Source: Beijerinckiaceae bacterium (GTDB taxonomy: Bacteria > Pseudomonadota > Alphaproteobacteria > Rhizobiales > Beijerinckiaceae). From it: DNA of 64,000 nucleotides. Numbering within the stretch: position 1 is the first letter of the stretch; each line of letters opens with the position of its first letter. Location: NCBI GenBank assembly GCA_024304885.1, contig JALJOM010000003.1, forward strand, positions 1,088,110-1,152,109, given 5' to 3'. Shown in pieces: positions 18,701-42,693 of this stretch. The notes beneath the pieces are model-generated. The model searched no databases and was not told where the DNA came from. It saw nothing but the letters and a program-made list of their open reading frames with translations. Made by a program: the position numbers and the translations under genes.

Positions 18701-18890
18701 CGTCCTGCCGCTCGTGCTCGCGACCGGGGCCGGCGCCAATGCGCGGCGTTCCCTCGGGATCAGCGTGTTCACCGGGATGCTCGCCTCGACCTGCCTCGCC
18801 GTCGTCTTCGTGCCGGCCTTCTTCGTCGTGCTGCAGCGGCTCGACGAGCGCTTCCGCGAGAAGAAGCCCGTCGAGGAGCCCGCTCACTGA
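15741..18890 (+). CDS. RND multidrug efflux pump, HAE1 family (1049 aa)
   Basis: Proton-driven inner-membrane transporter of the AcrB type, with 12 predicted membrane helices and two large periplasmic loops. The N terminus [23 protein letters not shown] is classic. The proton-relay aspartates sit in [12 protein letters not shown] at about residues 410-411 (fourth helix). The tenth helix region has [17 protein letters not shown]. The length is that of the family. Third gene of the operon. The substrate cannot be read from sequence. Expression control is unclear because no TetR or two-component gene adjoins the operon. Confidence 0.96.
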
Positions 18891-19210
18891 AAATAGAGGA
18901 GGCGGGCCTCGGCGAGCGCGCCGGCGCAGGCCGGGTCGTTTTGCGAGTCGAGCCTCTTGGCACGGGCGAGGACGGCATCGAACCCCGCCTGCGCTTGCTT
19001 CTTCGCCCGGGCGACGGATTCCGGTGTCGGCTGATGCTCCATTTGTGCGCCGATCGATTGCGGACCGCTCGGCCCCGCGTCGGGGCTCCCCTGTGCCGCC
19101 CGCACCTCCGCCTCGAAGCTCGCGATGTCCGCGGTGCAGGGTCCCGCATGCGCCGAGGCCGTACCGATGACGAGGGCCGCGACGATCGAAGCGATGCATG
19201 CTGTGCGCAC
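18884..19210 (-). CDS. Small secreted protein facing the RND operon (108 aa)
   Basis: Unrecognised. A signal peptide ([20 protein letters not shown]) is followed by a helical, Ala/Gln/Glu-rich domain: [60 protein letters not shown]. Two cysteines after the signal could form a disulfide. The start is GTG with GAGGGAG upstream; the frame continues far upstream but without similarity. Its 3' end overlaps that of the RND pump by seven bases, tail to tail. I recall similar small Cys-bearing proteins near pumps of this type in Hyphomicrobiales, but cannot confirm it. The function is unknown. Confidence 0.7.
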
Positions 19211-19969
19211 GGCGGCTGTGCTCCCTCGGGTTCGAAACCGCGCCCGGTGGGCGGGCGCTTTCTCCGGACGACCCTCCCTGGATCCGACGACGTCACGGGA
19301 GAGCGCCCCGGAGCCGCCGATGTCCGGCGGATCGGTGAGGCGGTGCACGCATGGCACCCTTTTGCGCTCCGCTCGTTCCACGTGGGTCCACGCCGCGGGC
19401 AGGTCGGTGACGATTCGGCTTATTGCGGTTCGAATTATATCAGCTATCATCGTAGCCGTCGCGGCACCATCGATCGATTGGGTCTTCCGGCGATCTCCCG
19501 AAGGGCGGGCGCGAGACCTTGTTCGCGGTGACGTGCGAACGTCATGGAGCGCGCTTACAGGCGGGCGCAAGGCACGCGGGAAACCGAGGAGTCCGAAGGG
19601 CGTCATGCGCGGACCGGTGCCGGTTCCGTGCCTCGAGGCCACGAATCATCCCGCGATCCGGGGCTCGTGACGGCGGTGCGCGGCGGATAGAGCAATTTCC
19701 GGCGGGCCGAATCACGGCTCGCGTCGTGAGATTGCGACGAGGCAAGAGTGTCGCGCGGCTTCCGATTCCACCGAATCCGAAATCGCACGTGAGCCTCGTC
19801 GGAACCGGGCAGGGGTTCGCGTCGCAAGAACGCGACCCCGAGACATAGAGAGCCGTGATCCGACGAGATCGGAAGGCGGCGCGAGGCATGAAGCCGAGAT
19901 GCGGCGGGCATGGGCTCGGTGACGAGCCCGAGCGACGACCGAATGGGCAGGAAAGAGGGGGCGAGAACC
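19211..19969. other. Gene-less stretch before the redox locus
   Basis: About 760 bases between divergent genes. The right half holds a degenerate copy of the dispersed repeat (separate entry). The left half, including a short AT-richer block near 19420-19460, has open frames on both strands, but none has a recognisable product. Promoters for the redox locus and for the small secreted protein should lie here. Confidence 0.5.
19685..19880 (+). repeat. Degenerate, probably doubled copy of the dispersed repeat
   Basis: Starts TAGAGCAATTTCCGGCG, then shows CACGGCTCGCGTCGTGAGATTGCGAC-like text and TTCCGATTCC...GAATCCGAA, the palindromic core with substitutions. A second, weaker round with GGTTCGCGTCGCAAGAACGCGAC and GATCGGAAGG follows. 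The order of blocks matches the copies at 46293-46500. Confidence 0.55.
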
Positions 19970-22480
19970 ATGGCTGAGACGAGAACCGTGGCACGACTTC
20001 TGTCGCTCGTTGCGGTCGTCGCGACCGGAGCGTTGCTGGCGTCCTGCGGCTCCGGTCCGCAACCGGGTACGGTTCTCGACGAGGCCAAGACGGCGGGCCG
20101 CGACGTTGCCTCCTTCCCTCATGCGGACGAGGACTACTTCCGCGATATGGACAACGGCGTCGCCTTGACTCCGGAAGAGGTCAAGGGCCGCAACATGTGG
20201 ATCGTCTGGACCGGAGGCAATGATCGCCAATGGGACAAGCTCGGTCCCTTGGGGTTCGGCACCTTGGATCTCTTGAAGATCGTGACCTCGCATCCGTCGC
20301 AGCGGGTCACCTACGGCGACGACAAGGACGCGCCCTACAACCGTGACACGCGTTGGGCCTGGCTCGGTGGAGTCAACGAGCCGTGCTTCAGCAAGGCGAC
20401 GCGACCGGATCCCGATCGGTTCGGGCTCTGGCTCGATGTCCGCAGCAAGGACTGCCCTGCGGATCCCTTCGAGAACGAGGAGAAATATCCGGGCGTCAAG
20501 ATCGGCGCGCGCGGCCAGCCGATCGGCGGCGGCAAGACCTTGCCGGTCGGATCCTACTACGGCACTGCGACGGGCATCGTCGGCCTGCGCCTGTTTCCCA
20601 ATCCCGATTTCGACGAGAAGGCCGCGAAGGAGTGGGATCCGGAAAGGTTCTACACCGATCCGCAGTATTACAACCGCCCGGATCTGGTCAGGCCCTACCG
20701 CGTAGGCATGTCCTGCGGATTCTGCCATGTCGGCCCGAGCCCGATCCATCCGCCGGCGGATCCGAGCAATCCGTCCTGGGCAAACCTCAGCTCCAGCGTC
20801 GGCGCGCAATATTTGTGGTCCGACCGGCTGTTCAGCTACAAGGCGCGGCGCGACGATTTCGTCTACCAGGCCTTGAAGACCTATCGTCCCGGCGCGATGG
20901 ACACCTCGCTCGTCTCGACGGATTACATCATAAATCCGCGCACGATGAACGCGATCTACCTCCTCTGGCCGCGGCTCGACCTCGCCTATCGCTGGGGCAA
21001 GGAGACGCTGAAAGGGGGCGAGCTCGACAACAAGCAGTTCAACGACTTCGTCCCGCCGGACAATCTCCTCTCCGAACTCTACAAGGCGCCTCACGCCTGG
21101 TCTCCCCGCGTCCTCAAGGACGGCTCCGATTCCGTCGGCGCCCTCGGGGCCTTGAATCGCGTCTACCTCAACATCGGCCTCTTCAGCGAGGAATGGTTCC
21201 TTCATTTCCGGCCGTTCTTCGGGGGGCAGCCGATCACCCCGATCAAGATCGCCGACGCGCAGAAGAACTCGACGTACTGGCGGGCGACCGAGGAGGGTAC
21301 GATGGCGATGGCCGCCTTCTTCCTCAAGGCGGCCCAGCCCGACCATTTGAAGGACGCGCCGGGCGGCGAGAAATATCTTCAGGCCGATGCGGCGACTCTC
21401 GCCCGCGGCCGGCAGGTCTTCGCCGAGACCTGCGCGCGCTGCCACTCGAGCAAGCAGCCGGAACCCGCTCCGGGAGTGGATCCCGGCGGGTGCGCCGGGC
21501 CGGAGTATCTCACCTGCTTCAAGAAATATTGGGCCTGGACCAAGACCGACGCCTACAAGGCGGAGATGCGCAAAATCGTCGACGATCCGGACTTCCTCGA
21601 GGACAACTACCTTTCGACCGAACTGCGCGTGCCCGAGACGCTCTTGCGCACGAATGCCTGCAGCCCGATCGCGACCAACGCGCTCGAGAACAACATCTGG
21701 GATAATTTCTCGTCGCAGACCTACAAGACCATGCAACCGGTCGGCTCGATCACGGTGCATGATCCGGTGACCGGCGAGAAGCGGCCGTTCGTGGTTCCGG
21801 GGGGCGGACGCGGCTATACGAGGCCGCCATCGCTGGTCAGCGCCTGGTCCACTGCCCCCTTCCTCCTCAACAACACGCTCGGCCCGTTCACCACGGACCC
21901 CTCGGTCGACGCGCGGCTGCGGGTCTTCCAGGCCTCGATCGAGCAATTGCTGTGGCCGGAGAAGAGGGAATTCGATTCGGTGCTCGGCAACAAGGTGCCG
22001 GGAACGATCGATCGCACGGATGCGCGAAGCTATGTCAAGCTCCCGGTCGGCTACCTTCCGTCCTGGCTCGCCTGGATCGCGGGGGACAAGGATGATCTCG
22101 AGATCGGGCCGTTCCCGAAGGGCACCCCTATCAGCCTCGTCGCCAACGTCGATCTTCTGCCCGACAACGTCGGCCTCGCCACGAAGCTCTTGAACGACGT
22201 GAAGCTCCTCGGCCTCGGCGTCCGCGGGCTGTGGAGCCTGTGGACCGCGGACCGCAACGCGACCGACGCAGAGCTGCTCGAGCATTACAGCGGGATGAAG
22301 GACCCGCTTCTCGGCGTCAGCAAATGCCCGGATTTCGTGGTCAATCGCGGCCATTATTTCGGGACGGCCGAGTTCAACAATGTCGACGGCTTGACGGAGG
22401 ACGAGAAATATTGGGGGGTCGAGCCGCCGCTCGCCGACGACGACAAGCGTGCCTTGATCGAATTCGTCAAGACCTTCTGA
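19970..22480 (+). CDS. Large di-heme c-type cytochrome lipoprotein (836 aa)
   Basis: Probably an exported electron-transfer protein or heme oxidoreductase; not assigned to a described function. A lipoprotein signal ends at Cys26 (GALLASC). Two heme-c attachment motifs are visible: CGFCH at 249-253 and CARCH at 488-492, 239 residues apart. Only two hemes in 836 residues leaves large regions unexplained. The end region (KCPDFVVNRGHYFGT, DDDKRALIEFVKTF) resembles the tails of the two smaller cytochromes at 26101 and 28157. ATG with GAGGGGG eight bases upstream. It is 13 bases from the GMC gene, suggesting electrons flow from that flavoprotein to this cytochrome. Substrate binding in the heme pocket is possible as well. 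Confidence 0.85.
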   Translation: MAETRTVARLLSLVAVVATGALLASCGSGPQPGTVLDEAKTAGRDVASFPHADEDYFRDMDNGVALTPEEVKGRNMWIVWTGGNDRQWDKLGPLGFGTLDLLKIVTSHPSQRVTYGDDKDAPYNRDTRWAWLGGVNEPCFSKATRPDPDRFGLWLDVRSKDCPADPFENEEKYPGVKIGARGQPIGGGKTLPVGSYYGTATGIVGLRLFPNPDFDEKAAKEWDPERFYTDPQYYNRPDLVRPYRVGMSCGFCHVGPSPIHPPADPSNPSWANLSSSVGAQYLWSDRLFSYKARRDDFVYQALKTYRPGAMDTSLVSTDYIINPRTMNAIYLLWPRLDLAYRWGKETLKGGELDNKQFNDFVPPDNLLSELYKAPHAWSPRVLKDGSDSVGALGALNRVYLNIGLFSEEWFLHFRPFFGGQPITPIKIADAQKNSTYWRATEEGTMAMAAFFLKAAQPDHLKDAPGGEKYLQADAATLARGRQVFAETCARCHSSKQPEPAPGVDPGGCAGPEYLTCFKKYWAWTKTDAYKAEMRKIVDDPDFLEDNYLSTELRVPETLLRTNACSPIATNALENNIWDNFSSQTYKTMQPVGSITVHDPVTGEKRPFVVPGGGRGYTRPPSLVSAWSTAPFLLNNTLGPFTTDPSVDARLRVFQASIEQLLWPEKREFDSVLGNKVPGTIDRTDARSYVKLPVGYLPSWLAWIAGDKDDLEIGPFPKGTPISLVANVDLLPDNVGLATKLLNDVKLLGLGVRGLWSLWTADRNATDAELLEHYSGMKDPLLGVSKCPDFVVNRGHYFGTAEFNNVDGLTEDEKYWGVEPPLADDDKRALIEFVKTF

Positions 22481-22493
22481 ACGGCGTTCGTCC

Positions 22494-24359
22494 GTGCCCG
22501 AGCGCGAATACGACTATGTGATCGTCGGTTCGGGAGCCGGCGGCGGGACGCTCGCGGCGCGGCTCGCCGAGTCGGCGGCGGTCAGCGTCTGCCTGCTCGA
22601 AGCGGGCGGCGACCCCCTGTGGGGGCGTGCCGACCCGACGCTGCCGGAAGACTACGAGGTTCCCGCCTTTCATCCGTTCGCCTCGGAAAACCCCGCGATG
22701 AGCTGGGAGTTCTTCGTTCGGCATTACGCCGACGAGCGGCAGCAACGGCGCGATCCCAAGCTCGTCGAAGGCAAGGGGATCTTCTACCCGCGCGCGGCCA
22801 CGCTCGGCGGCTGCACCGCCCACAATGCGATGATCTTCGTCTATCCGCACGAGTCGGATTGGGAGAAGATCAGGGACATCACCGGCGATCCGTCCTGGTC
22901 CGCGCGGGAGATGGAGAAGTATGCGCGCAAGGTCGAGGATTGTCGGCATCGCCCGGTCTGGCGCTTCCTGCGCCGGTTCGGCCTCGATCCGACCGGGCAC
23001 GGGTGGGACGGCTGGCTTTCGACCGAGATCGCGATCCCGCGCCAGGCCTTTCGCGACGACAGGCTCGTGCGGGTCGTCTTCGGCGCGACCTTGCGCGAGA
23101 TCTTCGGCTCCTCCGGTTGGCTGAGCAAGCTGTTGGGGCTGATCCGGAGCAAGGCCGATCCGAACGACGAGCGCTGGATCGCGTCGCACAAGACCGGGCC
23201 TTGCTTCACGCCCTTGAGCACGCGGGGCCACCGCCGTGGAAGCGTCCGCGAGCGGGTGCTCGACGTCGCGCGCCGCTATCCGGATCGCTTGCACATCGTC
23301 ACCGACGCCCTCGCCACGCGCGTCCTTTTCGACGACGTGCGGCTTCCGAACGGCGATCTTCGTGCGGTCGGCGTCGAATATCTGGCGGGGGAAAAGCTCT
23401 ACAAGGCCCATCCCGGATCCGGCGCGTCCACCGGGACGAGGCGGATCGTCCACGCGCGGCGCGAGGTGGTTCTCTCCGGGGGGGCCTTCAATACGCCACA
23501 GCTCTTGTTGCTTTCGGGCATCGGGCCCGAGGCCGATCTCGTCGCGCACGGGATCGAGGTCGCGGTCCCGCTCGCAGGGGTCGGCAGCAATCTCCAGGAC
23601 CGTTACGAGGTCGGTGTCGTGCACAGAGCGAAGGAGCCGTGGCGATCGTTGCGCGGCGCGCGCTTCGAGAAAGGCGACCCGCTGTTTCGGCAATGGCAGA
23701 AGGGCGGCAAGGGCTTCTACGGATCGAACGGGGTCGCGCTCTCGTTTATCATGAAGTCCGATGCGAGCCCGGTCGATCCGGACCTCTTCTGCATCGGGCT
23801 CCTCGGTCGCTTCACCGGCTACTACCCCGGCTACTCGCGACAGATTCCCAAGCATCTCGACACGATCTCCTTCGCGCTCTTGAAGGCCCACACCACCAAT
23901 CGAATGGGCAAGGTGACCTTGCGCTCCTGCGATCCGCGCGATCCTCCCGAGATCGACTTTCACTATTTCGAGGAAGGAAGTGACGTAGATGGCAAGGATC
24001 TCCGTGCGGTGGTCCAAGGCGTGGAGGCGATCCGCAACATCACGCGCGGCCTCGTGAACGAGGGGCTGCTGTATCCCGAGGACCTGCCCGGCGCGGACGT
24101 GACGTCGGCGAACGGCCGGCTCGAGCAGTTCATTCGGGACAATGCCTGGGGGCATCATGCTTGCGGCACCTGCCCGATCGGCCCACGCGATGCGGGCGGC
24201 GTGCTTTCGGGCGACTTCGCGGTGCACGGCACGCGCGGCTTGAGGGTTGTCGATGCCTCGATCTTCCCGGAAATTCCGGGTTTCTTCATCGCGAGCGCCA
24301 TCTTCATGATCGCCGAGAAGGCGGCCGACGTCATGCTTCGCGAGGCCGGTACCAGGTGA
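22494..24359 (+). CDS. GMC-family FAD oxidoreductase (621 aa)
   Basis: Flavin alcohol dehydrogenase or oxidase of the glucose-methanol-choline family. The FAD-binding loop VGSGAGGGTLAARLAE sits at residues 11-26 with LLEAGG after it. The GMC signature region is GIFYPRAATLGGCTAHNAMIFVYPHESDW, and the catalytic His lies in WGHHACGTCPIG near residue 560. The start is GTG with no strong ribosome site, 13 bases after the cytochrome stop, consistent with translational coupling. No signal peptide or Tat motif is visible, so how it meets the exported cytochrome is unclear. Similar dehydrogenases pass electrons to c-type cytochromes. The substrate is unknown; a bulky alcohol or lipid is a guess. Confidence 0.9.
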   Translation: MPEREYDYVIVGSGAGGGTLAARLAESAAVSVCLLEAGGDPLWGRADPTLPEDYEVPAFHPFASENPAMSWEFFVRHYADERQQRRDPKLVEGKGIFYPRAATLGGCTAHNAMIFVYPHESDWEKIRDITGDPSWSAREMEKYARKVEDCRHRPVWRFLRRFGLDPTGHGWDGWLSTEIAIPRQAFRDDRLVRVVFGATLREIFGSSGWLSKLLGLIRSKADPNDERWIASHKTGPCFTPLSTRGHRRGSVRERVLDVARRYPDRLHIVTDALATRVLFDDVRLPNGDLRAVGVEYLAGEKLYKAHPGSGASTGTRRIVHARREVVLSGGAFNTPQLLLLSGIGPEADLVAHGIEVAVPLAGVGSNLQDRYEVGVVHRAKEPWRSLRGARFEKGDPLFRQWQKGGKGFYGSNGVALSFIMKSDASPVDPDLFCIGLLGRFTGYYPGYSRQIPKHLDTISFALLKAHTTNRMGKVTLRSCDPRDPPEIDFHYFEEGSDVDGKDLRAVVQGVEAIRNITRGLVNEGLLYPEDLPGADVTSANGRLEQFIRDNAWGHHACGTCPIGPRDAGGVLSGDFAVHGTRGLRVVDASIFPEIPGFFIASAIFMIAEKAADVMLREAGTR

Positions 24360-24714
24360 GCGATGTGCGCTATCGCACAGCTCGGAAGCAGCTGGTAATG
24401 TAAAGGTAATAGTTAGAAAGTTTGGAGGCTGTCCTGGATCTGTTTTCGAGAACAACTTGTATTTTTGACGGGTTTCGGCTAGGCTGATGCCATCTACATT
24501 AGAGGTTGTACAATTCTAGATATACACACATTCCGTGCAGCCCGTGTGGCGACGAAGCAATGCGGTCGCGCCGTGGTGACGTGCCGCTTCGCAAGTGTCG
24601 AGGTATCCGTCTTAAGCCGCGCCGCTCGTCCGGCGCACCTTCGGCGAAGGTGACGAGCCGCCTCGGTCAACTGCGAGCCGACCTGAAGTCGAGCCGAAAC
24701 GTAAGGGGGAGGTC
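24360..24714 (+). promoter_or_regulatory. AT-rich leader between GMC and OYE genes
   Basis: A 355-base gap with an AT-rich core at 24395-24535, unlike its surroundings. It contains TTGACG at 24465-24470, a possible -35 box, but no clear -10 at the usual spacing. The last 12 bases before the next gene give a very strong ribosome site (AGGGGGAGG). The gap suggests a second promoter inside the redox locus. No hairpin followed by a T run was found. Confidence 0.4.
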
Positions 24715-26046
24715 ATGGGCGCAGATATCATCTTCGAGCCGCTCGAATGGCGCAATATCCGAATCAAGAACAGGATCTTTCGCTCCAGCATCAACGGCCG
24801 CTGGGACAACGAGGACGGGAGCCTGACCCAGCCTCGGGTCAACTGGGAATCCAAGTTCGCCGAGGGCGGCGTCGGCGCGATCATCTCCTCCTTCGTGCCG
24901 GTGCTGATGGAAGGGCGCATCCTGCCCAACTACGGCACGATCCACCGCGACGACTTCATCCCGTTGTGGGCGAAGGTCGGCGAGGCGGTCCACAAGCACG
25001 ACTGCAAGTTCATCATGCAGCTCAGCCACTCCGGTCGCCAGCTCGATCTGCAGGGAGTGTCGAACCTGAACAAGCGGAGCCGGAGCTCGACGAGCAAGAC
25101 GGAATCCTTGAACGGAATCCTCACCCAGGCGATGACCCAGGAGGAGATCGACAAGGTCGTCAAGGCGTTCGGCGACGGCGCATGGCGCGCTCGCGAGGCC
25201 GGGCTCGACGGTGTCGAGCTCCACGGCGCCAACGGCTACCTGATCTCGCAGTTCCTGAGCTCGGGAATCAACGATCGCACCGATGGCTACGGCGGCGATA
25301 TCCGCGCCCGCGCCCGCTTTGTGCTCGAGATCATCGCGGCGATCCGCGACCGCTGCGGCCCCGACTTCCATCTGCAGGTCAAGTTCAACGCGATCGACTA
25401 CAACAATGTCATTCCCTGGGAGAAGCCCGGCAACGTGCTGGAGGAGAGCATCGAGGCCGCGAAGCTCTTCGAGGCCGCCGGCGCCGACGCGCTCCACATC
25501 TCCACGGGCAGCCTCTTCCCGCACCCGCTGAACCCGCCGGGCGACTTCGATTTCGACACGATCGCGAGGACCTATGGCACGGTCCTTCCGGCCGGCATCT
25601 ACACTTTCCGGAACCTCCTCCTGTTCCGCTTCACGTGGCTCCGGCCGATCTTCCGCTGGCTGTGGTTCCGCATGAAGGCGGGACATCCCGTGGAAGGCGT
25701 GGGTCTCGCGGCGGCCAAGGCGATCAAGCAGGCCGTCTCGATTCCCGTGATCAGCACGGGGGGCTATCAGAGCTCGAACTTCGTGCGCGACGCGATCTCG
25801 AGCGGCGCGATCGACGGTGTCGCGATCGCGCGGTCGCTGATCGCCAATCCCGACCTTCCGAAGCAATGGGCCGAAGGGCGGGACCTGCCGGCCATTCCGT
25901 GCACCTATTGCAACAAGTGCCTGCTCAATGCGCCGGCGAACCCGCTCGGCTGCTACGAGCTCGAGCGATACGGCGGCGACTACGACAAGATGCTCGCCGA
26001 GATCCTGTCTGTCTACAAGGTCCAACCCGAGCTCGTCGTGCCCTGA
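24715..26046 (+). CDS. NADH:flavin oxidoreductase / old yellow enzyme, with Fe-S cysteines (443 aa)
   Basis: FMN-binding TIM-barrel ene-reductase family. Landmarks are FEPLEWRNIRIKNRIFRSS at the start, MQLSHSGRQ, VELHGANGYLISQFLS, the NDRTDGYGG loop, and VISTGGYQSS for phosphate binding. After the barrel, four cysteines (396, 399, 402, 413; CTYCNKC then C) have the spacing of the 4Fe-4S site in 2,4-dienoyl-CoA reductase and trimethylamine dehydrogenase. The protein stops 30 residues later and lacks their 200-250-residue FAD/NAD(P)H domain. A separate protein would then have to deliver electrons. A hydrophobic, Trp/Phe-rich insertion (FRNLLLFRFTWLRPIFRWLWF) near residues 300-320 is unusual and may touch the membrane or a lipophilic substrate. 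Confidence 0.88.
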   Translation: MGADIIFEPLEWRNIRIKNRIFRSSINGRWDNEDGSLTQPRVNWESKFAEGGVGAIISSFVPVLMEGRILPNYGTIHRDDFIPLWAKVGEAVHKHDCKFIMQLSHSGRQLDLQGVSNLNKRSRSSTSKTESLNGILTQAMTQEEIDKVVKAFGDGAWRAREAGLDGVELHGANGYLISQFLSSGINDRTDGYGGDIRARARFVLEIIAAIRDRCGPDFHLQVKFNAIDYNNVIPWEKPGNVLEESIEAAKLFEAAGADALHISTGSLFPHPLNPPGDFDFDTIARTYGTVLPAGIYTFRNLLLFRFTWLRPIFRWLWFRMKAGHPVEGVGLAAAKAIKQAVSIPVISTGGYQSSNFVRDAISSGAIDGVAIARSLIANPDLPKQWAEGRDLPAIPCTYCNKCLLNAPANPLGCYELERYGGDYDKMLAEILSVYKVQPELVVP

Positions 26047-26100
26047 GCCGACCCTGTGGGTGTAAGAACAACGAGCAGCGACAGGTAGGAGACCTCGACA

Positions 26101-27633
26101 GTGGCAAAGCAAGGCGGCGCGCTCGGGCGCGTAATCCTCGTCATCGCGGCGATCCTGATCGGTGTTCCGGGACTCGCCGTGCTCGGAATCGGCGGAATCG
26201 TCGCGTGGCGCTACTTGCTCCGCCCCGAATCCACGCCGACCTATACGAATATCGTCGAGCACTGGAAGTACGGCTCGATCGGCAGCGAGGTCACGGGACT
26301 CCCCTATTGGGTGTGGAAGGCGCTGCCGGTGCTCTTTCCGGAGAAGCTGCCGAACGGCGACTTGTCGTCGATCGGGCTCCTCTACGAGACCGACGCGAGC
26401 GGCAACAAGCTCGACCTGCCGATCGGGCTCAGCCGGCGCACCCTCCAGGGCGTCGAGCGGGCCTGGTTCAATTGCGCGCTCTGCCATACCGGAACCGTGC
26501 AAAAGACCGCGGACGGAGCTCGCGAGATCGTCTCGGGCATGCCGTCGAACAATCTCGACATGCACGGGCTCATCGCCTTCGTGGTCGGCATCTCCGACGA
26601 CCCGAGGCTCGCCCCGGATAGCTTGATCCCGGCGATGAAGAAGGCCGGTGCGAAGCTCGATCTCATCGACGAGGCCTTCTGGCGGTTCCTCGCCATTCCC
26701 GTCCTTCGCGAGACCCTGCTCCAGCAGCGCGCGAACCTCGAGCCGCTCCTCGCCTATCAGCCCGTGTGGGGGCCAGGCCGGGTCGATACCTTCAATCCCT
26801 ACAAGGTCATCCAGTTCCACGAGAAATTCGACGACCTCACCGAGGCCGAGAAGGTCGGCGTGTCGGATTTTCCGACGACGTTCAACCAACGTCCGCGCGG
26901 CGATCAGAACATGGAGCTGCATTGGGACGGCAACAATCCCTCGCTTCAGGAACGCAACCTCAGCGCTGCGCTCGGCGCGGGGGTCACCGAGACATCTGTC
27001 GATCATCCCGCGATCGACAGAATTGCGGAATGGCTCCTCGACCTGCGTCCGGCACCGAGCCCCTACACCCCGGACCCCGCCAAGGTCGAAGCCGGCAAGG
27101 CGGTCTATATGGCGCAATGCGCGACCTGCCACGGCTTCCAGGGTCCGGACGGCTACGTGTTCGAGGGTGAGTATCTCGGCAAGGTCGAGCCCAACGCGAA
27201 GCTCGGCGCCGACAGGTCGCGGCTCGACAGCTATACCCAGAAGCTGCGCGACTACCAGCTCACCCTGTTCAAGGATGTGGACGGCGGCAAGTACCAATTC
27301 CGCCACTTCAGGAAGACCGACGGCTACGCCAACCTTCCGCTCGACGGGCTGTGGCTGCGTGCCCCCTACATGCATAACGGATCCGTGCCGACGCTCGCCG
27401 ACCTGTTGCTGCCGCCTGAGCAGCGTCCCAAGGCCTTCCTGCGCGGCTCGGATGTCCTCGATGCGGAGAAGGGCGGGTTCGTCGCACCGGCCTGCGTGCC
27501 CGGCGAGAAGGTCGAGAAGGGATTCTGCTACGACACGAGCGTGCGCGGCAACGGCAATGGCGGGCACCTCTACGGCACCGACCTTTCCGGCTCGGACAAG
27601 GACGCTCTCGTCGCCTATCTCTTGACGTTCTAG
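26101..27633 (+). CDS. Membrane-anchored di-heme cytochrome c (510 aa), paralogue 1
   Basis: One N-terminal helix (about residues 8-38) anchors an exported domain. Two heme-c motifs: CALCH at 125-129 and CATCH at 340-344. Between them lies VWGPGRVDTFNPYK, and after the second heme comes LPLDGLWLRAPYMHNGSVPTLADLL, a region with a Tyr, Met, His cluster as in the CcpA/MauG/RoxA superfamily. The roughly 215-residue heme spacing is close to that of RoxA-type rubber oxygenases as I recall them, but the protein is shorter and the resemblance is only by eye. GTG start with TAGGAG upstream. It is a clear paralogue of the protein at 28157, from the first heme to the last residue. Confidence 0.85.
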   Translation: MAKQGGALGRVILVIAAILIGVPGLAVLGIGGIVAWRYLLRPESTPTYTNIVEHWKYGSIGSEVTGLPYWVWKALPVLFPEKLPNGDLSSIGLLYETDASGNKLDLPIGLSRRTLQGVERAWFNCALCHTGTVQKTADGAREIVSGMPSNNLDMHGLIAFVVGISDDPRLAPDSLIPAMKKAGAKLDLIDEAFWRFLAIPVLRETLLQQRANLEPLLAYQPVWGPGRVDTFNPYKVIQFHEKFDDLTEAEKVGVSDFPTTFNQRPRGDQNMELHWDGNNPSLQERNLSAALGAGVTETSVDHPAIDRIAEWLLDLRPAPSPYTPDPAKVEAGKAVYMAQCATCHGFQGPDGYVFEGEYLGKVEPNAKLGADRSRLDSYTQKLRDYQLTLFKDVDGGKYQFRHFRKTDGYANLPLDGLWLRAPYMHNGSVPTLADLLLPPEQRPKAFLRGSDVLDAEKGGFVAPACVPGEKVEKGFCYDTSVRGNGNGGHLYGTDLSGSDKDALVAYLLTF

Positions 27634-27750
27634 GCGTTCGCCCGGAGCGGCGCCTCCGCCGCCGGCAGTGGACGCGTGGCGCCTGAACTTGCAGCTCCAG
27701 CGCCGGGCGTCGATCGAAATGTGGGCATCCGACGAGCAAAGGACTCGGCA

Positions 27751-28137
27751 ATGGACGAGAACAGGTATCTCCTCTGGTTCAGCCGGGTGGTGTGGGCCGG
27801 CATCGCCGCCAATTGCCTCCTCGCCGGCTTCGCCCTCGTCGCGCCGGTGACCGTCATAAACCTCGTCGGGCTACCGATGGCCGAGCCTCTGGTTTGGCCG
27901 CGATTCGCCTCCTTCCTGCTCTTGCTGCTGTCCGGATTCTACGTGGCGGCGGCGAGGGATCCGCTCGGCAATCTCTACACCTCCGTCTGGACGGTCGCCT
28001 GCCGCGTCGGAGGCGTCGTCTTCTTCTCCATCGTAGGCGGGAACTACATCGTTTTCGCGCTGTTCGACCTGACCTTCGGTTTGCCCGAAGGAATCCTGCT
28101 GTGGCTCGGTGTCTCCGCCGCGTCGAAACAAAAATAA
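27751..28137 (+). CDS. Small four-helix membrane protein (128 aa)
   Basis: Not recognised. Four hydrophobic segments are visible: VVWAGIAANCLLAGFALVAP, FASFLLLLLSGFYVAAA, SVWTVACRVGGVVFFSIVGG and YIVFALFDLTFGLPEGILLWLG. There is an Arg/Asp-Pro loop (RDPLGNLYT) in the middle. ATG with AAGGA about eight bases upstream. It lies between two paralogous di-heme cytochromes and 19 bases before the second, so it is probably part of the same complex or a quinone-facing or assembly subunit. No heme-binding His pair stands out, so I do not call it a b-type cytochrome. Confidence 0.75.
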   Translation: MDENRYLLWFSRVVWAGIAANCLLAGFALVAPVTVINLVGLPMAEPLVWPRFASFLLLLLSGFYVAAARDPLGNLYTSVWTVACRVGGVVFFSIVGGNYIVFALFDLTFGLPEGILLWLGVSAASKQK

Positions 28138-28156
28138 CAAAAGGAGCGCGCCACCC

Positions 28157-29599
28157 ATGAGAAAGACCCTTCCTTGGCTCGTCGGTCTCCTGGTCGTCCT
28201 CGGCGGTATCGGGTGGCTCGCGTATGATAAGCTGTTTCGGCGGGACTTCCCCGTCTATGCCTCGGACGCCGAGTATTTCAAGTACGGGTCGATCGGCAAC
28301 GACAGCGAGAACGGCGTGCCCTATCTCGTCTGGCGCGTGCTCCCGACGGTCTTCCCCGACCTGTTTCCTGGTCCGGGCGGCTATGCCTCGCTCGGGTTCT
28401 ATTGGGAGAAAGGCCGCTCGGAGGCCGATGCTCCCGTGGGATTTTCGAAGGCACGCATAGGTTTCGAGCGGATGGCGATCAACTGTGCCTTCTGCCACAA
28501 TACCATCACGCGCAGCGCGCTCGGCGCAGAGCCGGTCGCCTATCCGACCGGCCCTTCGAACCTGACCGACGTCCAGGCCTATCAGCGGTTCCTGTCGGCC
28601 TGTGCCTCCGATCCGAGATTCACGCCGGAGGTGCTCCTGCCGGAGATCGAAAAGGTCGCCCCACTTTCCTTCATCGACCGCGCCCTCTACCGGTTCCTGC
28701 TCATCCCCGCCACGCGCCAGGCGCTGCTCGACCAGAAGGCGGTTTTCGCCTGGTCCTTCACGAGGCCAGTGTGGCACGCCGGGCGTATCGACCCGTTCAA
28801 CCCGGTGAAGTTCGACATGCTGAAGCTTCCCGACGACGGCACCATCGGCAACTCGGACATGATGGCGGTCTGGGGGCTCGACGCCCGCAATGCGATTCGT
28901 CCCGACGCGCCATTGCATTGGGACGGGCTCAACACCTCGATCCGCGAGGTCGTGATCAGCTCGGCGCTCGGCGACGGCGGACGCGCGAGCGCGCCGAACT
29001 TCTTCGATTCGATGAATCGGATCGAGCGATACCTTCGCAGCTCCCGCGCTCCGGCCTCGCCCTACGAGGCGGCCCCCGTCCTCGTCGAGCAGGGTGCCGC
29101 CGTGTTCGCGGCGGAGTGTGCCGAATGCCACGCAAAGGACGGCGCGAAGACCCTCACCGTCGTGCCGTTGGCGGAGGTCGGGACGGATCGGCACAGAACC
29201 GACATGTGGACCATCGCGGCCCGCGACGCCTACAACAACTACAACCAAGGCTACGACTTCGGCTTCAAGTCGTTCCAGAAGGTCGAAGGCTATCTCGCCG
29301 AGCCGCTCGACGGCCTCTGGTTGACGGGACCCTATCTCCACAACGGCTCGGTCCCGACCGTCGCCGATCTCCTGGAGCCCGCCGCGGCGCGGCCGAAGGC
29401 TTTCGTCCGCGGCATCACCGTGCTCGATTCCGAGAAGATCGGCTTCGTCGCTCCGGCATGCGTGCCCGGCGCGAAGCTCGACGAGGGCTATTGCTACGAT
29501 ACGAGCGAGGCGGGCAATTCACCCGAGGGCCACGAGTACGGGACTTCGTTGCCGCCGGCCGACAAGGCGGCGCTCATCGCCTACCTGAAGACTCTCTAG
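28157..29599 (+). CDS. Membrane-anchored di-heme cytochrome c (480 aa), paralogue 2
   Basis: Exported cytochrome with an N-terminal anchor (residues 4-23). Heme motifs CAFCH at 110-114 and CAECH at 321-325. It shares with paralogue 1 the blocks FKYGSIGN, VWHAGRIDPFNPVK, LHWDGLNTSI, LDGLWLTGPYLHNGSVPTVADLL and GFVAPACVPGAKLDEGYCYDTS. The last block holds two extra conserved cysteines that could form a disulfide. The ATG has AAGGAG upstream. The Met of paralogue 1's APYMHNG is Leu here, so the second heme may have a different ligand or redox potential. This suggests the two proteins do different jobs rather than being simple duplicates. Confidence 0.85.
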   Translation: MRKTLPWLVGLLVVLGGIGWLAYDKLFRRDFPVYASDAEYFKYGSIGNDSENGVPYLVWRVLPTVFPDLFPGPGGYASLGFYWEKGRSEADAPVGFSKARIGFERMAINCAFCHNTITRSALGAEPVAYPTGPSNLTDVQAYQRFLSACASDPRFTPEVLLPEIEKVAPLSFIDRALYRFLLIPATRQALLDQKAVFAWSFTRPVWHAGRIDPFNPVKFDMLKLPDDGTIGNSDMMAVWGLDARNAIRPDAPLHWDGLNTSIREVVISSALGDGGRASAPNFFDSMNRIERYLRSSRAPASPYEAAPVLVEQGAAVFAAECAECHAKDGAKTLTVVPLAEVGTDRHRTDMWTIAARDAYNNYNQGYDFGFKSFQKVEGYLAEPLDGLWLTGPYLHNGSVPTVADLLEPAAARPKAFVRGITVLDSEKIGFVAPACVPGAKLDEGYCYDTSEAGNSPEGHEYGTSLPPADKAALIAYLKTL

Positions 29600-29604
29600 C
29601 TCCC

Positions 29605-29624
29605 GCCGGCCCCTCGGGGCCGGC
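29605..29624. terminator. Bidirectional hairpin between convergent genes
   Basis: GCCGGCCCC at 29605-29613 pairs perfectly with GGGGCCGGC at 29616-29624. It sits between the stop of the last cytochrome gene and the stop of leuB. No T run follows on either strand. Confidence 0.6.
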
Positions 29625-29633
29625 CGACCGCGG

Positions 29634-30746
29634 TCATGCGAGCGCGGCCTGCAGCTCGGCGAGAATGGCATCGCCCATCTGCGCTGTAGAGACGCTCTCT
29701 GTCGCGTCGCCCGCGATATCGCCGGTTCGGATACCCTTCGCGAGCACGCCCGCGATCGCTTGCTCGACGCGATCGGCGAGATCGCCGAGGTTGAAGGAAT
29801 AGCGCAGAGCCATGCCGAGCGAGCCGATCATGGCGATCGGGTTCGCGATGCCTTTGCCTGCGATGTCGGGCGCCGAGCCGTGCACGGGCTCGTAGAGCGC
29901 CTTGCGCGTCTCGGTCCTCGGGTTCTTCTCGCCGAGCGAGGCCGAAGGCAGCATGCCGAGCGAGCCGGTGAGCATCGAGGCCACGTCGGACAGCATGTCG
30001 CCGAAGAGATTGTCGGTGACGATGACGTCGAATTGCTTCGGCCGGCGCACGAGCTGCATGCCGAGCGCGTCGGCGAGCTGATGCTCGAGCGTGACGTCGG
30101 GATATTCCCGCGTGTGGAGAGCGCTGATGACCTCGTGCCACAGCACGCCCGATTTCATCACGTTGCGCTTTTCCGACGAGGTCACCTTGTTGCGGCGCTT
30201 GCGGGCGAGATCGAAGGCCACGCGGCCGATTCGCTCGATCTCGTAGGTATCGTAGACTTGCGTGTCGATGCCGCGCTTCTGCCCGTTGCCGAGGTCGATG
30301 ATCTCCTTCGGCTCGCCGAAATAGACGCCACCGGTCAATTCTCGCACGATCATGAGATCGAGCCCCTCGACGAGCTCGCGCTTCAAGGAGGAGGCGTCGG
30401 CGAGGGCCGGATAGCAGATCGCGGGGCGGAGATTGGCGAAAAGCTCGAGTTCCTTGCGCAGCCGCAGGAGCCCCGCCTCGGGACGCACGTCGTAGGGCAC
30501 GTGGTCCCATTTCGGGCCGCCGACCGCGCCGAAGAGGACGGCGTCCGCTGCCTTGGCGCGATCCATGTCGGCCTCGCTGATCGCCATGCCGTGTGCGTCA
30601 TAGGCGGCGCCGCCGACGAGGCCTTTCTCGACCTCGAACCGCACGACGCCGGCTTCGGAAAGCCAGGCCAAAATCTTCTCGACCTCGGCCATGACCTCGG
30701 GGCCGATGCCGTCGCCGGGCAGGACGAAGAGCTTGTAGGATGTCAT
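29634..30746 (-). CDS. leuB: 3-isopropylmalate dehydrogenase (370 aa)
   Basis: Oxidative decarboxylation of 3-isopropylmalate in leucine synthesis with NAD+. Typical pieces are [17 protein letters not shown] at the start, [32 protein letters not shown], the catalytic Lys/Tyr region [33 protein letters not shown], the metal-binding [28 protein letters not shown], and [24 protein letters not shown] for NAD. The length is normal. It follows acnA on the same strand, separated by a structured repeat. leuC and leuD are not in the window. Confidence 0.97.
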
Positions 30747-30832
30747 GGTGGGTGGCTTTCAGGCAACGGTGTGGGGAATTGGGACGCGGGCGCTCGATGT
30801 GTGCACGCGAAAGGGCAGCGAATGCGCAAAAT

Positions 30833-33803: not shown

Positions 33804-34412
33804 TTGCTGCGGATCGAAGCCTCGGATATCGCCGTCGAACGCGGCGGACGCAGGGTCTTGTCGGGCCTCTCCTTCGCGCTCGATGCGGGCGAGTGCCTGC
33901 TCGTTACCGGGCCGAACGGCGCAGGGAAATCGACGCTCTTGCGCGCCATGGCCGGACTCCTGCCTCTGCGGAGCGGCACCCTGTCCCACACGCCCGACAG
34001 CGATGCGCCGCTCGCCGAGCAGGCCCATTTCGTCGGCCACGCGGATGCGCTCAAGGGAAGCCTCACGGTCGCGGAGAACCTGACCTTTCTCGCGGCGATG
34101 CTGCGTACCGGCGAGGCCGGTTGTTCGGTCGAGGGATCGCTCGCGGCCTTGGGCCTCGCCCGGCTCGCGGACCTCCCCGCGTCCTATCTGTCGGCCGGGC
34201 AGAAGCGCCGAGTGGCGCTGGCACGCTTGCTCGTCGCGCGCCGGCCGCTCTGGCTCCTCGACGAGCCCTCGACCGCGCTCGACCGCGCGGCACAGGGGAT
34301 GCTCGGGAAGATCATGGCCGCGCATCGCGCCGACGGCGGGCTCATCGTCGCCGCCACGCACGCGAGCCTCGGGATCGACGGCCGTGAGCTGAAGCTCGGG
34401 GCGTCGTCGTGA
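33804..34412 (+). CDS. ccmA: Heme exporter ATP-binding protein CcmA (202 aa)
   Basis: ATPase of the CcmABCD complex, which moves and releases heme on CcmE during cytochrome c maturation. Walker A GPNGAGKST at 36-44, signature LSAGQ at 129-133, Walker B LLDEP at 151-155. The start is TTG, supported by AGGAG eight bases upstream and by alignment of the first residues. It overlaps ccmB by four bases. Divergent from acnA across a 117-base gap that must hold both promoters. Confidence 0.95.
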   Translation: MLRIEASDIAVERGGRRVLSGLSFALDAGECLLVTGPNGAGKSTLLRAMAGLLPLRSGTLSHTPDSDAPLAEQAHFVGHADALKGSLTVAENLTFLAAMLRTGEAGCSVEGSLAALGLARLADLPASYLSAGQKRRVALARLLVARRPLWLLDEPSTALDRAAQGMLGKIMAAHRADGGLIVAATHASLGIDGRELKLGASS

Positions 34413-35098
34413 CACTGTACCGACCTCCGAGGTCTCCCCTCGCGGCGCTGTTCCTGCGCGAGATTCGAGTCGGGCGGCGCATCGGCGGCGGCAGCATGCT
34501 GGGCGTGATCTTCTTTCTCGTTCTGGTCACCCTCACGCCCTTCGCCATCGGACCCGATCTCGCGCTGCTCTCACGGATCGCCCCGGCGATTCTCTGGCTC
34601 TCGGGGCTCCTTGCCACCTTGCTCGGGCTCGATCGCCTGTTCCAGGCCGACTACGAGGACGGCTCGCTCGACCTCATGCTCACGAGCCGGACGCCGCTCG
34701 AGCTCGTGATCCTGACGAAATGCGCCGCACATTGGGTCCTGACCGGCCTGCCGCTCGTGGCCGCGGCCCCTTTGTTCGGCCTCATGTTGGCGATGCCGGC
34801 GCAGGACCTCTGGCGCATCGCCCTCTCGCTCCTCGTCGGGACGCCGGCCTTGACCTTGATCGGCGCGATCGGCGCCGCCTTGACCGTCAGCCTCAGGCGC
34901 GGCGGGCTTCTGCTCGCGGTCCTGATCCTGCCGCTCTCGGTCCCGGTCCTCATTTTCGGCGTCGCGGCCGCGGCGGCGACCGAGTCGGGGCTTTTGCCTT
35001 TCGCGACGCCGATGATGATCCTTTGCGCCCTGACCCTGCTCGCGCTCGTCGGCGCGCCGGTCGCCGCCGCCGCAGCCTTGCGCCAGGCTGGCTCGTAG
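34409..35098 (+). CDS. ccmB: Heme exporter membrane protein CcmB (229 aa)
   Basis: Membrane half of the Ccm ABC transporter. FLREIRVGRRIGGGSMLGVIFFLVLVTLTPFAIGPD opens the protein as in CcmB, and GLDRLFQADYEDGSLDLML is the conserved cytoplasmic loop. Six hydrophobic segments. The start is GTG overlapping the ccmA stop, so both are co-translated. In most relatives ccmC follows directly; here two secreted-protein genes intervene. Confidence 0.96.
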   Translation: MTLYRPPRSPLAALFLREIRVGRRIGGGSMLGVIFFLVLVTLTPFAIGPDLALLSRIAPAILWLSGLLATLLGLDRLFQADYEDGSLDLMLTSRTPLELVILTKCAAHWVLTGLPLVAAAPLFGLMLAMPAQDLWRIALSLLVGTPALTLIGAIGAALTVSLRRGGLLLAVLILPLSVPVLIFGVAAAAATESGLLPFATPMMILCALTLLALVGAPVAAAAALRQAGS

Positions 35099-41405: not shown

Positions 41406-41798
41406 TCAGGGATTGAGGAACGTCTCGTCCACGGGGATTTGATAGCCGTTCGCGATCCGGTTCGTCTCGTTGGCGAGCCCGACCACCGCGATCAGCTCCG
41501 CCCATTGCTCGTCCGTCATTCCTTTCGCCCGCGCCGAGGCCGAGTGCGAAGCGATGCAATAGGGACAATTGTTGGTGACGCTGACGGCGATATAGACGAG
41601 CTCCTTCGTCAAGGGATCGAGCGTACCCGGCGCCATCACCTCCTTCACGTTCGCCCAGAGGCGCCGGAGCGTTGGCGGGTGGGTCGCGATCGCCTTCCAG
41701 AAATTGTTGATCCAATCTACCTTACGCGTCGCCTTGATGTCGGCATAGACGGCCGCGACCTCCGCCGAGGCCGCGGCTTCTTCGATCAGCTTTGCCAA
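41406..41798 (-). CDS. Carboxymuconolactone decarboxylase / AhpD-like protein (130 aa)
   Basis: All-helical CMD-family protein. The AhpD-type redox motif is present: NNCPYCIASHSASARAKG, with the CxxC pair and following His needed for peroxidase-linked thiol chemistry, so it is more likely a redox protein than a lactone decarboxylase. The start is TTG with AGGAGGAAGAG just upstream, inside the last codons of the membrane protein gene (13-base overlap). It therefore belongs to the same operon as the two membrane proteins at 41786 and 42269. The physiological partner is not known. Confidence 0.88.
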   Translation of the reverse strand: MAKLIEEAAASAEVAAVYADIKATRKVDWINNFWKAIATHPPTLRRLWANVKEVMAPGTLDPLTKELVYIAVSVTNNCPYCIASHSASARAKGMTDEQWAELIAVVGLANETNRIANGYQIPVDETFLNP

Positions 41799-42208
41799 TG
41801 CTCTTCCTCCTGTCGTTCGGCCGTGAAGCCGGCATAGGTCAAGTAGGCACCGAGCAGGAAGGGGGTCATTGCATAAAGATAGATGCGTTCCTCGAAGCGG
41901 AGCCAGGCGATGAAGGACTCCATGACACCCGACGGCAGGAACACGAGCAACAAGCCTCGGAGCACGAGCACCCAGCCGAGCACCGTCACGACAATGGTCA
42001 GGACCCCGCCCGACCATCGGTTGTGGGCGAGCACGATCGCAAGACCGCTCGCCAGCGCAAGCATCCCGAAGAGGATCAGGGTCGGGCGATCGTTCATGAA
42101 GGCGGTCATGGTCACGACGAGGTCCTCGCCACGCAAAAGCAAGGCGACGGAGAAGATCAAGGTGAACAGCCCGATCAGCTTGGCAAGAAAGATCGTGAGC
42201 GGCGACAT
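41786..42208 (-). CDS. Four-helix membrane protein (140 aa), tandem copy 2
   Basis: Not recognised beyond its paralogue just upstream at 42269-42670. Four hydrophobic segments: FLAKLIGLFTLIFSVALLLRG, PTLILFGMLALASGLAIVLAHNRWSGG, LTIVVTVLGWVLVLRGLLLVFLP and IYLYAMTPFLLGAYLTYAGFTA. The two paralogues share GLAIVLAHN-WSG, LTIVVT--GWV--RGLLL-FLP and the end GAYLTYAGFTA. ATG with GGAGGC upstream. It overlaps the AhpD-like gene. Function unknown. Confidence 0.8.
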   Translation of the reverse strand: MSPLTIFLAKLIGLFTLIFSVALLLRGEDLVVTMTAFMNDRPTLILFGMLALASGLAIVLAHNRWSGGVLTIVVTVLGWVLVLRGLLLVFLPSGVMESFIAWLRFEERIYLYAMTPFLLGAYLTYAGFTAERQEEEHWQS

Positions 42209-42268
42209 GCAAGCCTCCATCGCGAGGTGTCCACCCCGTTCCCTTCGTGAGCCGAGATACGCGTCCCT

Positions 42269-42670
42269 CTAAAGTGGCACGGCGGTGAATCCCGCATAGG
42301 TCAAGTAGGCACCGAGCACGAGGGGCAGCGTGGCATAAAGATAATAATGCCGTTCGAACTGCAGCGCCGCGAATGTATGCTCCACGCGTTCCGCGGGCAG
42401 GAAGAGCAGAAGGAGGCCCCGGATCAGAGTGACCCAGCCGAAGAGGGTCACGACGATCGTGAGCGCGCTGCCCGACCAGATGTTGTGGGCGAGCACGATG
42501 GCGAGGCCGATGACGAGCCGGATCGTCGCGATGATCAGCAGCATCGGCCGGTCGTCGATCATGGCCTGCATGGTCTCGATGTAGAAGTCCCGGCGCAGGA
42601 ACAAGGATGCAGAGAGCAGCAGCGCGGCGCTTCCGATCAGCTGGGCGAGATAGATGGTGAGCGACGACAT
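42269..42670 (-). CDS. Four-helix membrane protein (133 aa), tandem copy 1
   Basis: Tandem paralogue of the protein at 41786. Segments: YLAQLIGSAALLLSASLFLRR, PMLLIIATIRLVIGLAIVLAHNIWSGS, LTIVVTLFGWVTLIRGLLLLFLP and YYLYATLPLVLGAYLTYAGFTA. Start ATG at 42670 with GGAGGCCC before it. Only 11 bases separate the frame's open upstream end from recN's stop, so recN and these genes may be cotranscribed. Function unknown. Confidence 0.8.
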   Translation of the reverse strand: MSSLTIYLAQLIGSAALLLSASLFLRRDFYIETMQAMIDDRPMLLIIATIRLVIGLAIVLAHNIWSGSALTIVVTLFGWVTLIRGLLLLFLPAERVEHTFAALQFERHYYLYATLPLVLGAYLTYAGFTAVPL

Positions 42671-42693
42671 GTGGGCCTCCATGGCACGAGGGC

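Follow-up and report, generated by a model that had tools for sequence, protein, structure and literature searches.

The 64,000-nt stretch of Beijerinckiaceae contig JALJOM010000003.1 analysed here (the window) carries at positions 19970-29599 six open reading frames (ORFs), all on the + strand, which we name LIP, GMC, OYE (old yellow enzyme family), cytA, TM and cytB. The locus is composed of two portable modules, one of LIP and GMC and the other of OYE, cytA, TM and cytB. From homology and gene company we tentatively propose, at somewhat less than an even chance, that it encodes a membrane-linked oxygenation of unsaturated fatty acyl chains, or of a close lipid, followed by modification of the product, as in oxylipin-type pathways. 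The component families are known, and we rate the six-gene set as a variant of bacterial oxylipin-type systems. The initial annotation of this DNA described a locus of six same-strand genes that encode only redox or membrane proteins. The six ORFs are confirmed, and the fifth gene does encode a multi-pass membrane protein; this protein reaches no family cut-off, however, and nothing in it indicates a redox function. The locus is not uniform: a 355-bp gap divides it into two modules, which also occur apart. The features are as follows.

19970..22480, + strand: LIP (P0001), 836 amino acids (aa); exported di-haem lipoprotein with lipobox LLASC, two CXXCH motifs and C-terminal RGHYFG
22494..24359, + strand: GMC-family flavoprotein (P0002), 621 aa; H555 kept, F598 at the second catalytic position
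24360..24714, + strand: intermodule gap, 355 bp, separating LIP-GMC from OYE-cytA-TM-cytB
24715..26046, + strand: OYE-family flavoprotein (P0003), 443 aa; Cys cluster and H..NGY site
26101..27633, + strand: cytA (P0004), 510 aa; membrane-anchored RoxA-like di-haem cytochrome with PYMHNGSVP and WDG
27751..28137, + strand: TM (P0005), 128 aa; small multi-pass membrane protein
28157..29599, + strand: cytB (P0006), 480 aa; second RoxA-like di-haem cytochrome

The intergenic distances are, in order, 13, 355, 54, 117 and 19 bp. A promoter-like site at 24487-24514, inside the gap, is the only one in 18800-30800, which is the chance level (1 found, 1.1 expected). Six of the seven matches of the haem-site DNA pattern in the window fall in the locus, with a chance mean of 1.68 for the whole window. 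The CXXCH motifs lie at residues 249 and 488 of P0001, 125 and 340 of P0004, and 110 and 321 of P0006, which confirms the two haem c sites noted in each of three exported cytochromes.

The two modules have different distributions. Scanning genome records for LIP by profile yielded 352 relatives, the best 80 of which were kept as LIP loci; they include Variovorax, Cupriavidus, Bradyrhizobium, Rhizobium, Chromobacterium, Acidobacteria, Nitrospira and Sorangium, among others. A GMC homologue is present in 75 of these 80 loci; in 66 it is co-directional with LIP and begins no more than 400 bp after it, and in 9 it lies elsewhere in the locus. A close OYE is found in one of the 80 (L101, a metagenome-assembled genome of Acetobacteraceae, whose contig ends after TM), and a second OYE match, in L066, is distant (30%). 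With the window's own genome (G000) counted, the order yielded LIP in 6 of 249 genomes (E up to 1e-3), and the class yielded cytA-like genes in 9 of 385 (E up to 1e-30). Among 398 genomes of the phylum, LIP occurs in three (G000, G785 and G829; E up to 1e-100) and OYE in three (G000, G706 and G915; E up to 1e-80). Only G000 is common to both sets, and the modules are therefore mostly separate. In four other cytA-positive genomes of the class sample (L122-L125) a distant LIP is combined with paired cytochromes, and both GMC and OYE are missing.

The modules are joined in several other replicons. In a plasmid scan, LIP matched 21 records, cytA 65 (29 of them with query coverage of 80% or more) and OYE 2409, and the same 18 Rhizobium/Sinorhizobium accessions, two of which were examined, stand at the top for all three. 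The gene order is OYE-cytA-TM-cytB-LIP-GMC in Rhizobium johnstonii pRL11 (RL_RS32245-RL_RS32270 in strain 3841) and Sinorhizobium fredii pSF45436e, and it is identical to that of pRL11 in genomes G099 (L017) and G600 (L121). On the 3' side of the six genes there is an annotated patatin-like phospholipase in pRL11, and in pSF45436e an ORF whose patatin match falls below the cut-off. The order in the window is a permutation of that in pRL11, which fits two joined modules. The co-occurrence of all six families in other genomes, whose absence would have refuted the initial annotation by its own condition, is thus observed in four cases. No description of the six-gene combination was found among the open-access papers searched, as judged by title and the start of the abstract.

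cytA and cytB are 42% identical, and each has an N-terminal hydrophobic anchor, two CXXCH, the MauG motif PYxHNGSVP and the C-terminal GH ligand motif. Both exceed the cut-off of Pfam RoxA-like_Cyt-c (55 bits for cytA and 62 for cytB; cut-off 26.7), and with NF040606, 'di-heme-cytochrome C peroxidase', they score 152 and 140 bits, respectively, against a cut-off of 150. A profile of eight cytochromes has RoxA (4b2n) as its first match (8e-25), and RoxA is also the only significant PDB match of the cytA structure model (1.6e-7; mean predicted local distance difference test score, pLDDT, 75.1). Of the two RoxA residues that serve as reference positions (PMC6311187, PMC4496055), W302 aligns with the conserved WDG of cytA and cytB, so that the inter-haem Trp is kept, while the F317 position is Leu in both proteins (from the 4b2n alignment and motif reading). 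Across the OYE loci, each of the 15 cytochromes whose motif was found has Leu or Ile here, a count that omits L121 cytB (its row is empty) and the own-genome paralogue in L015 (its motif differs). The NCBIfam RoxA, RoxB and RoxC models give 41-76 bits on cytA and cytB, with cut-offs of 900-1000; identity with RoxA, RoxB or RoxC is not upheld by these cut-offs, and a rubber oxygenase identity was dropped on these scores and on the Leu. An assignment to MauG or CcpA was likewise set aside: the MauG motif is present, yet only RoxA is significant by fold, and chains of the MauG complex reach only E 0.6. The comparison with RoxA/RoxB, MauG and CcpA suggested at the outset gives a RoxA fold match for cytA and, as described below, no significant fold match for LIP.

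For TM, no Pfam or NCBIfam family was above cut-off. Relatives likewise have a small membrane protein after cytA, wherever one was read or matched. At three loci (L091:3214-6144, L097:11103-14438 and L099:12556-15888) a single ORF has a cytA-like domain after a long N-terminal part, which in L091 opens with a weak TM-like match followed by a middle domain of no identified family.

Among the closest known systems is the oleate diol synthase PA2077/PA2078 ('FadCcp') of Pseudomonas aeruginosa, as described in the abstract and Results of PMC4496055. PA2077, of the RoxA-like group, oxygenates oleate and needs both haems to do so, a reported non-rubber activity of this group, and PA2078 converts the toxic hydroperoxide. 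Like cytA and cytB, the two are encoded in tandem, are exported RoxA-like di-haem proteins and share a common ancestor (43.4% identical, as against 42% here), and by published description they share the MauG-type PYxHNGSVP and two CXXCH. They differ in length (634 and 624 aa versus 510 and 480) and in the spacing of the haem motifs (245 and 235 residues versus 215 and 211). Both keep the F317 equivalent, which is Leu here, and PA2078 has Ser at the W302 position, which is Trp in both cytA and cytB. Partners such as LIP, GMC, OYE and the small membrane protein are unmentioned in that abstract and Results. RoxA and RoxB (4b2n; PMC6311187) are alike in fold, the two CXXCH, the MauG motif, the C-terminal GH ligand motif and W302; the locus cytochromes differ from them in the Leu, the predicted membrane anchor, the low Rox scores and the gene company.

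OYE is a clear member of its family (Pfam Oxidored_FMN, 211.9 bits), and its active site H..NGY is present in 10 of 10 aligned rows. The barrel with four clustered cysteines that had been noted earlier is borne out: the cluster C-x2-C-x2-C-x10-C is kept in all ten rows, the window protein included, and is a candidate site for a [4Fe-4S] cluster. A Trp/Phe/Arg-rich insert is kept in the closer relatives, and the N-terminus has no hydrophobic leader. In barrel, active-site His/Asn and clustered Cys the protein resembles the Fe-S OYEs of FadH/BaiCD type. It differs from them in ending at 443 aa (642-645 in the models), which leaves no space for a C-terminal FAD/NAD(P) reductase domain, and in scores far below their cut-offs.

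The GMC protein is well above both Pfam cut-offs (GMC_oxred_N, 85.1 bits, cut-off 23; GMC_oxred_C, 96.9 bits, cut-off 24.6). In alignments with the solved choline dehydrogenase and choline oxidase, H555 falls on a His of these enzymes and F598 on the Asn of their GNLN/VNPN segment; we take this His and Asn to be the catalytic pair. All 74 aligned rows have Phe at position 598. The active site, previously considered intact, is therefore not fully canonical: the catalytic His is retained, and the His/Asn position that should complete the pair is not. An export signal was not seen at the N-termini of the 74-row alignment, which was inspected by eye and has one incomplete row.

LIP was aligned in 43 rows (the window protein and 42 of 77 usable relatives). 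Exactly two CXXCH and a C-terminal GH are present in all 43, and the lipobox column is Cys in 27. No Pfam family was above cut-off for LIP, and a Foldseek comparison of its AlphaFold model (mean pLDDT 84.8; predicted TM-score 0.87) with the PDB gave no significant fold match. Similarity to cytochrome profiles (hhalign) is confined to the second haem site (30 columns), there is a 28-residue end match to RoxA structure 4b2n (E 8e-4), and the NF040606 score is 25.6 bits, below the cut-off of 150. A classification of LIP as a RoxA-fold protein was dropped, given that these links are short or sub-threshold and that Foldseek returned nothing.

The substrate is suggested mainly by the genes that accompany relatives of the locus. 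Ten OYE-cytA loci were compared: the window's own; L017 and L101, obtained via LIP; L103 and L104, via LIP, cytA and OYE alike; L120 and L121, via cytA; and L139, L140 and L141, via OYE. LIP and GMC are present in six of the ten, an animal-haem-peroxidase gene lies near OYE in the other four, and no locus has both; this mutual exclusion is suggestive, in a small, related and partly LIP-chosen sample. The four peroxidase-type proteins match Pfam An_peroxidase with 347-366 bits and all contain EEFTA[VI]YRMH, and the pattern E-F-x3-Y-R-x-H recurs in six other proteins that were read (L105, L106, L126, L154, L155 and L156). According to PMC13049297, F-x3-Y surrounds the catalytic Tyr of a bacterial 10S-dioxygenase, and cyclooxygenases and fungal dioxygenases have Y-x-W or Y-x-F. 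The locus proteins match the first of these motifs exactly and the second in kind only (Y-x-M), and we refer to them as cyclooxygenase-like dioxygenases. In L105 (Qingshengfaniella) a protein with the motif lies less than 4 kb from a cytA-like gene. In Rhizobium phaseoli pRetR611c (L106:5036-7864) a catalase-related domain is fused to a cyclooxygenase-like dioxygenase, directly 5' of a distant RoxA-like, cytA-like gene (29% identical), and in L126 (G457) a dioxygenase is near a cytochrome that a catalase-related gene flanks. The dioxygenase was found in 8 of the 398 genomes, two of which (G706 and G915) have OYE and cytA adjoining. Its overlap with OYE (3 of 398; two shared) gives a Fisher p of 0.001, which is not a clean test, as the query came from the in-sample G915 and was chosen after it had been seen beside OYE, four of the eight genomes are one genus, and the identity of the two 398-genome samples was judged from equal numbers and shared handles.

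Patatin genes were found in 5 of the 10 OYE loci and in 15 of the 80 LIP loci, L101 being counted in each group, and in the 80 LIP loci profiles matched a catalase-related protein in 40, a DyP-type peroxidase in 40, its N-terminal-like partner in 41 and a RoxA-like cytochrome in 6. The patatin, catalase, DyP and dioxygenase profiles were built partly from loci that were later counted, so that the counts include seeds. In 200 kb of control DNA there were no patatin, catalase-related or DyP matches; its only matches are explained by regions that had been selected for a dioxygenase or a cytochrome. The phospholipase is above Pfam cut-off in L066, L101, L020, L103, L120 and L141 and below it in L104 (21.4 versus 27.7), no Pfam phospholipase was found in L091, and the remaining assignments rest on the profile built in this analysis. 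None of the catalase-related proteins given to Pfam (two from LIP loci, one from L126) had a family above cut-off. Against the PDB the catalase-related profile gave seven matches. The first (9e-7) and third (1.5e-5) are coral allene oxide synthase-lipoxygenase, the third as the fusion protein; the second is 3e4w (2e-6), the fourth is a catalase (0.004), and the remaining three are weaker. Genome records of 15 LIP loci were tested, and in the 12 with a catalase-related gene in the locus the best match of the whole record is, by coordinates, the cluster copy. About half of the 80 LIP loci contain a three-gene block (for example L031:14913-18861 and similar regions) of a DyP-like N domain, a DyP-type peroxidase and an allene-oxide-synthase-like catalase relative. 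We know of no description of a lipid-peroxide cassette of this kind, although none was specifically searched for.

This company of phospholipase, dioxygenase and allene-oxide-synthase-like genes favours oxygenated fatty acids among the four options that homology leaves, and with the RoxA-like cytochromes it strengthens the earlier proposal of a lipophilic unsaturated substrate and a haem-based oxygenase. In the pathway we envisage, a phospholipase (encoded beside the clusters of relatives, with an unlinked homologue in G000) would free an acyl chain. cytB and/or cytA, perhaps with LIP, would then insert O2 or convert a hydroperoxide at the N-terminal haem, by chemistry modelled on that of RoxA with rubber and of PA2077 with oleate. 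OYE, apparently cytoplasmic, would reduce or form a C=C bond adjacent to the oxygen function just introduced. The GMC flavoprotein would oxidise a hydroxyl, and TM may anchor cytA or supply its electrons. In relatives without LIP-GMC the oxygenation step would fall to the cyclooxygenase-like dioxygenase, and the exchange between LIP-GMC(-cytB) and dioxygenase suggests that the former would fill the oxygenating step in this genome. The order of steps, the substrate, the product and the role of LIP are inferred from homology and gene company. A more specific version, which we regard as doubtful, is an octadecanoid-like pathway in which the RoxA-like cytochromes, LIP and the variant GMC would replace the dioxygenase in a non-orthologous swap around a constant OYE-cytA-TM core, with OYE acting like plant 12-oxophytodienoate reductase (OPR).

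Several observations weigh against an acyl-chain oxygenation pathway. GMC and OYE look cytoplasmic and the cytochromes exported, so the pathway would need an intermediate to pass through the membrane. Both cytochromes have Leu at the F317 position, and the likeness to PA2077/PA2078 is drawn from a published description and not from direct sequence comparison. In G000 there is no dioxygenase match at E up to 1e-40 and no catalase-related match at E up to 1e-15; a PF03098 family scan of this genome also gave no match, with its control silent too. The PLA2/patatin-type gene of G000 (900 aa; L160:9075-11774, at ~152-155 kb of contig 3; Patatin 25.4 bits, below cut-off, and PLA2_B above) lies ~0.95 Mb from the cluster. 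The ten OYE loci are few and not independent, since L120 and L141 come from a single genus and the loci of Rhizobium type are alike; a catalase-related gene is in none of them, and patatin is absent from five, the window included. The other six dioxygenase-positive genomes, four of which are one genus, have no partner genes within 20 kb, and LIP and OYE meet in just one genome of the 398. Also among the closest known systems is the Nostoc pair of a 10S-dioxygenase and a catalase-related hydroperoxide lyase (Brash 2014, as described in PMC13049297). Both kinds of protein lie beside relatives of the locus, but no single OYE locus holds the two; G000 gave no match to either, and the passage on the Nostoc pair mentions no cytochrome or OYE partner.

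The same genes might instead serve in defence against lipid peroxides, with the di-haem proteins as peroxidases that clear membrane lipid hydroperoxides, patatin excising damaged chains, and OYE and GMC removing enals and alcohols. The marginal NF040606 match of cytA, the DyP-type and catalase-related genes in half of the LIP loci, and the reading of PA2078 as a control on the toxic hydroperoxide from PA2077 (PMC4496055, abstract and Results) are all in keeping with such a role. The cyclooxygenase-like partner, however, still carries the Tyr motif found in hydroperoxide-forming enzymes, the cytochromes retain the RoxA-like PYxHNGSVP and WDG, and the rarity of LIP in the phylum would be odd for a general defence, and we consider this explanation unlikely.

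Somewhat less likely still is a respiratory dehydrogenase, in which GMC would oxidise an alcohol, LIP and the di-haem cytochromes would pass the electrons to the respiratory chain, and OYE would be a side enzyme. Cytochrome-linked GMC dehydrogenases are known, and the LIP-GMC pair is conserved to the degree given above. On the other hand, the second catalytic residue of GMC is Phe, and the RoxA-type catalytic features of cytA and cytB exceed the needs of electron transfer. The hand-over of electrons from GMC to cytochromes, as first envisaged, is also disfavoured by location: GMC has no visible export signal and OYE no leader, whereas the three cytochromes have leaders or anchors, and an export route for the partner would be needed. 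We give the lowest probability, that of a quite improbable alternative, to cleavage of a polyisoprenoid, terpenoid or hopanoid by the RoxA-like oxygenases with OYE and GMC processing enals, which is near the idea of the initial annotation. RoxA is the nearest solved fold, enal or alcohol products would suit OYE and GMC, and in five LIP loci that lack this OYE (L018, L020, L091, L097 and L099) the cytA-like relative has Phe at the F317 position; against this stand the uniform Leu or Ile of the OYE-locus cytochromes and the very low Rox scores. The identified neighbours indicate acyl lipids over isoprenoids, and no gene for a terpenoid, sterol or polyisoprene substrate was named among those run against Pfam/NCBIfam, although no search was aimed at them.

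Elsewhere in G000, ~88 kb upstream of the cluster on contig 3 (L015:6575-8479), a further RoxA-like di-haem protein scores 445 bits with NF040606 and has a cytochrome P450 gene nearby; this region is possibly a second lipid-oxygenation locus. Two more RoxA-like_Cyt-c matches in the genome are above the Pfam cut-off (C3:1683946-1684026, L131, 30.4 bits; C8:444929-445018, L132, 27.7 bits). By ORF reading, the six genes are preceded in the window by an RND efflux system and followed, on the opposite strand, by leuB- and acnA-like genes. The ccmA-/ccmB-like genes for cytochrome c maturation lie at 33804-35098, ~4 kb downstream of cytB, and 41786-42682 encodes a tandem pair of paralogues, both of them small membrane proteins (MEA.MS.LTI.LA.LIG).

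To our knowledge few bacterial oxylipin enzymes are known. If the locus does act in oxygenation of acyl chains, the Rhizobium/Sinorhizobium plasmid set of phospholipase, RoxA-like cytochromes and OPR-like OYE would make new lipid signals, or the catabolism of plant lipids, directly accessible to experiment. The LIP-GMC half is much more widely distributed (Variovorax, Cupriavidus, Acidobacteria, Nitrospira, Sorangium), and a function for it here would explain a di-haem lipoprotein that has no solved relative.

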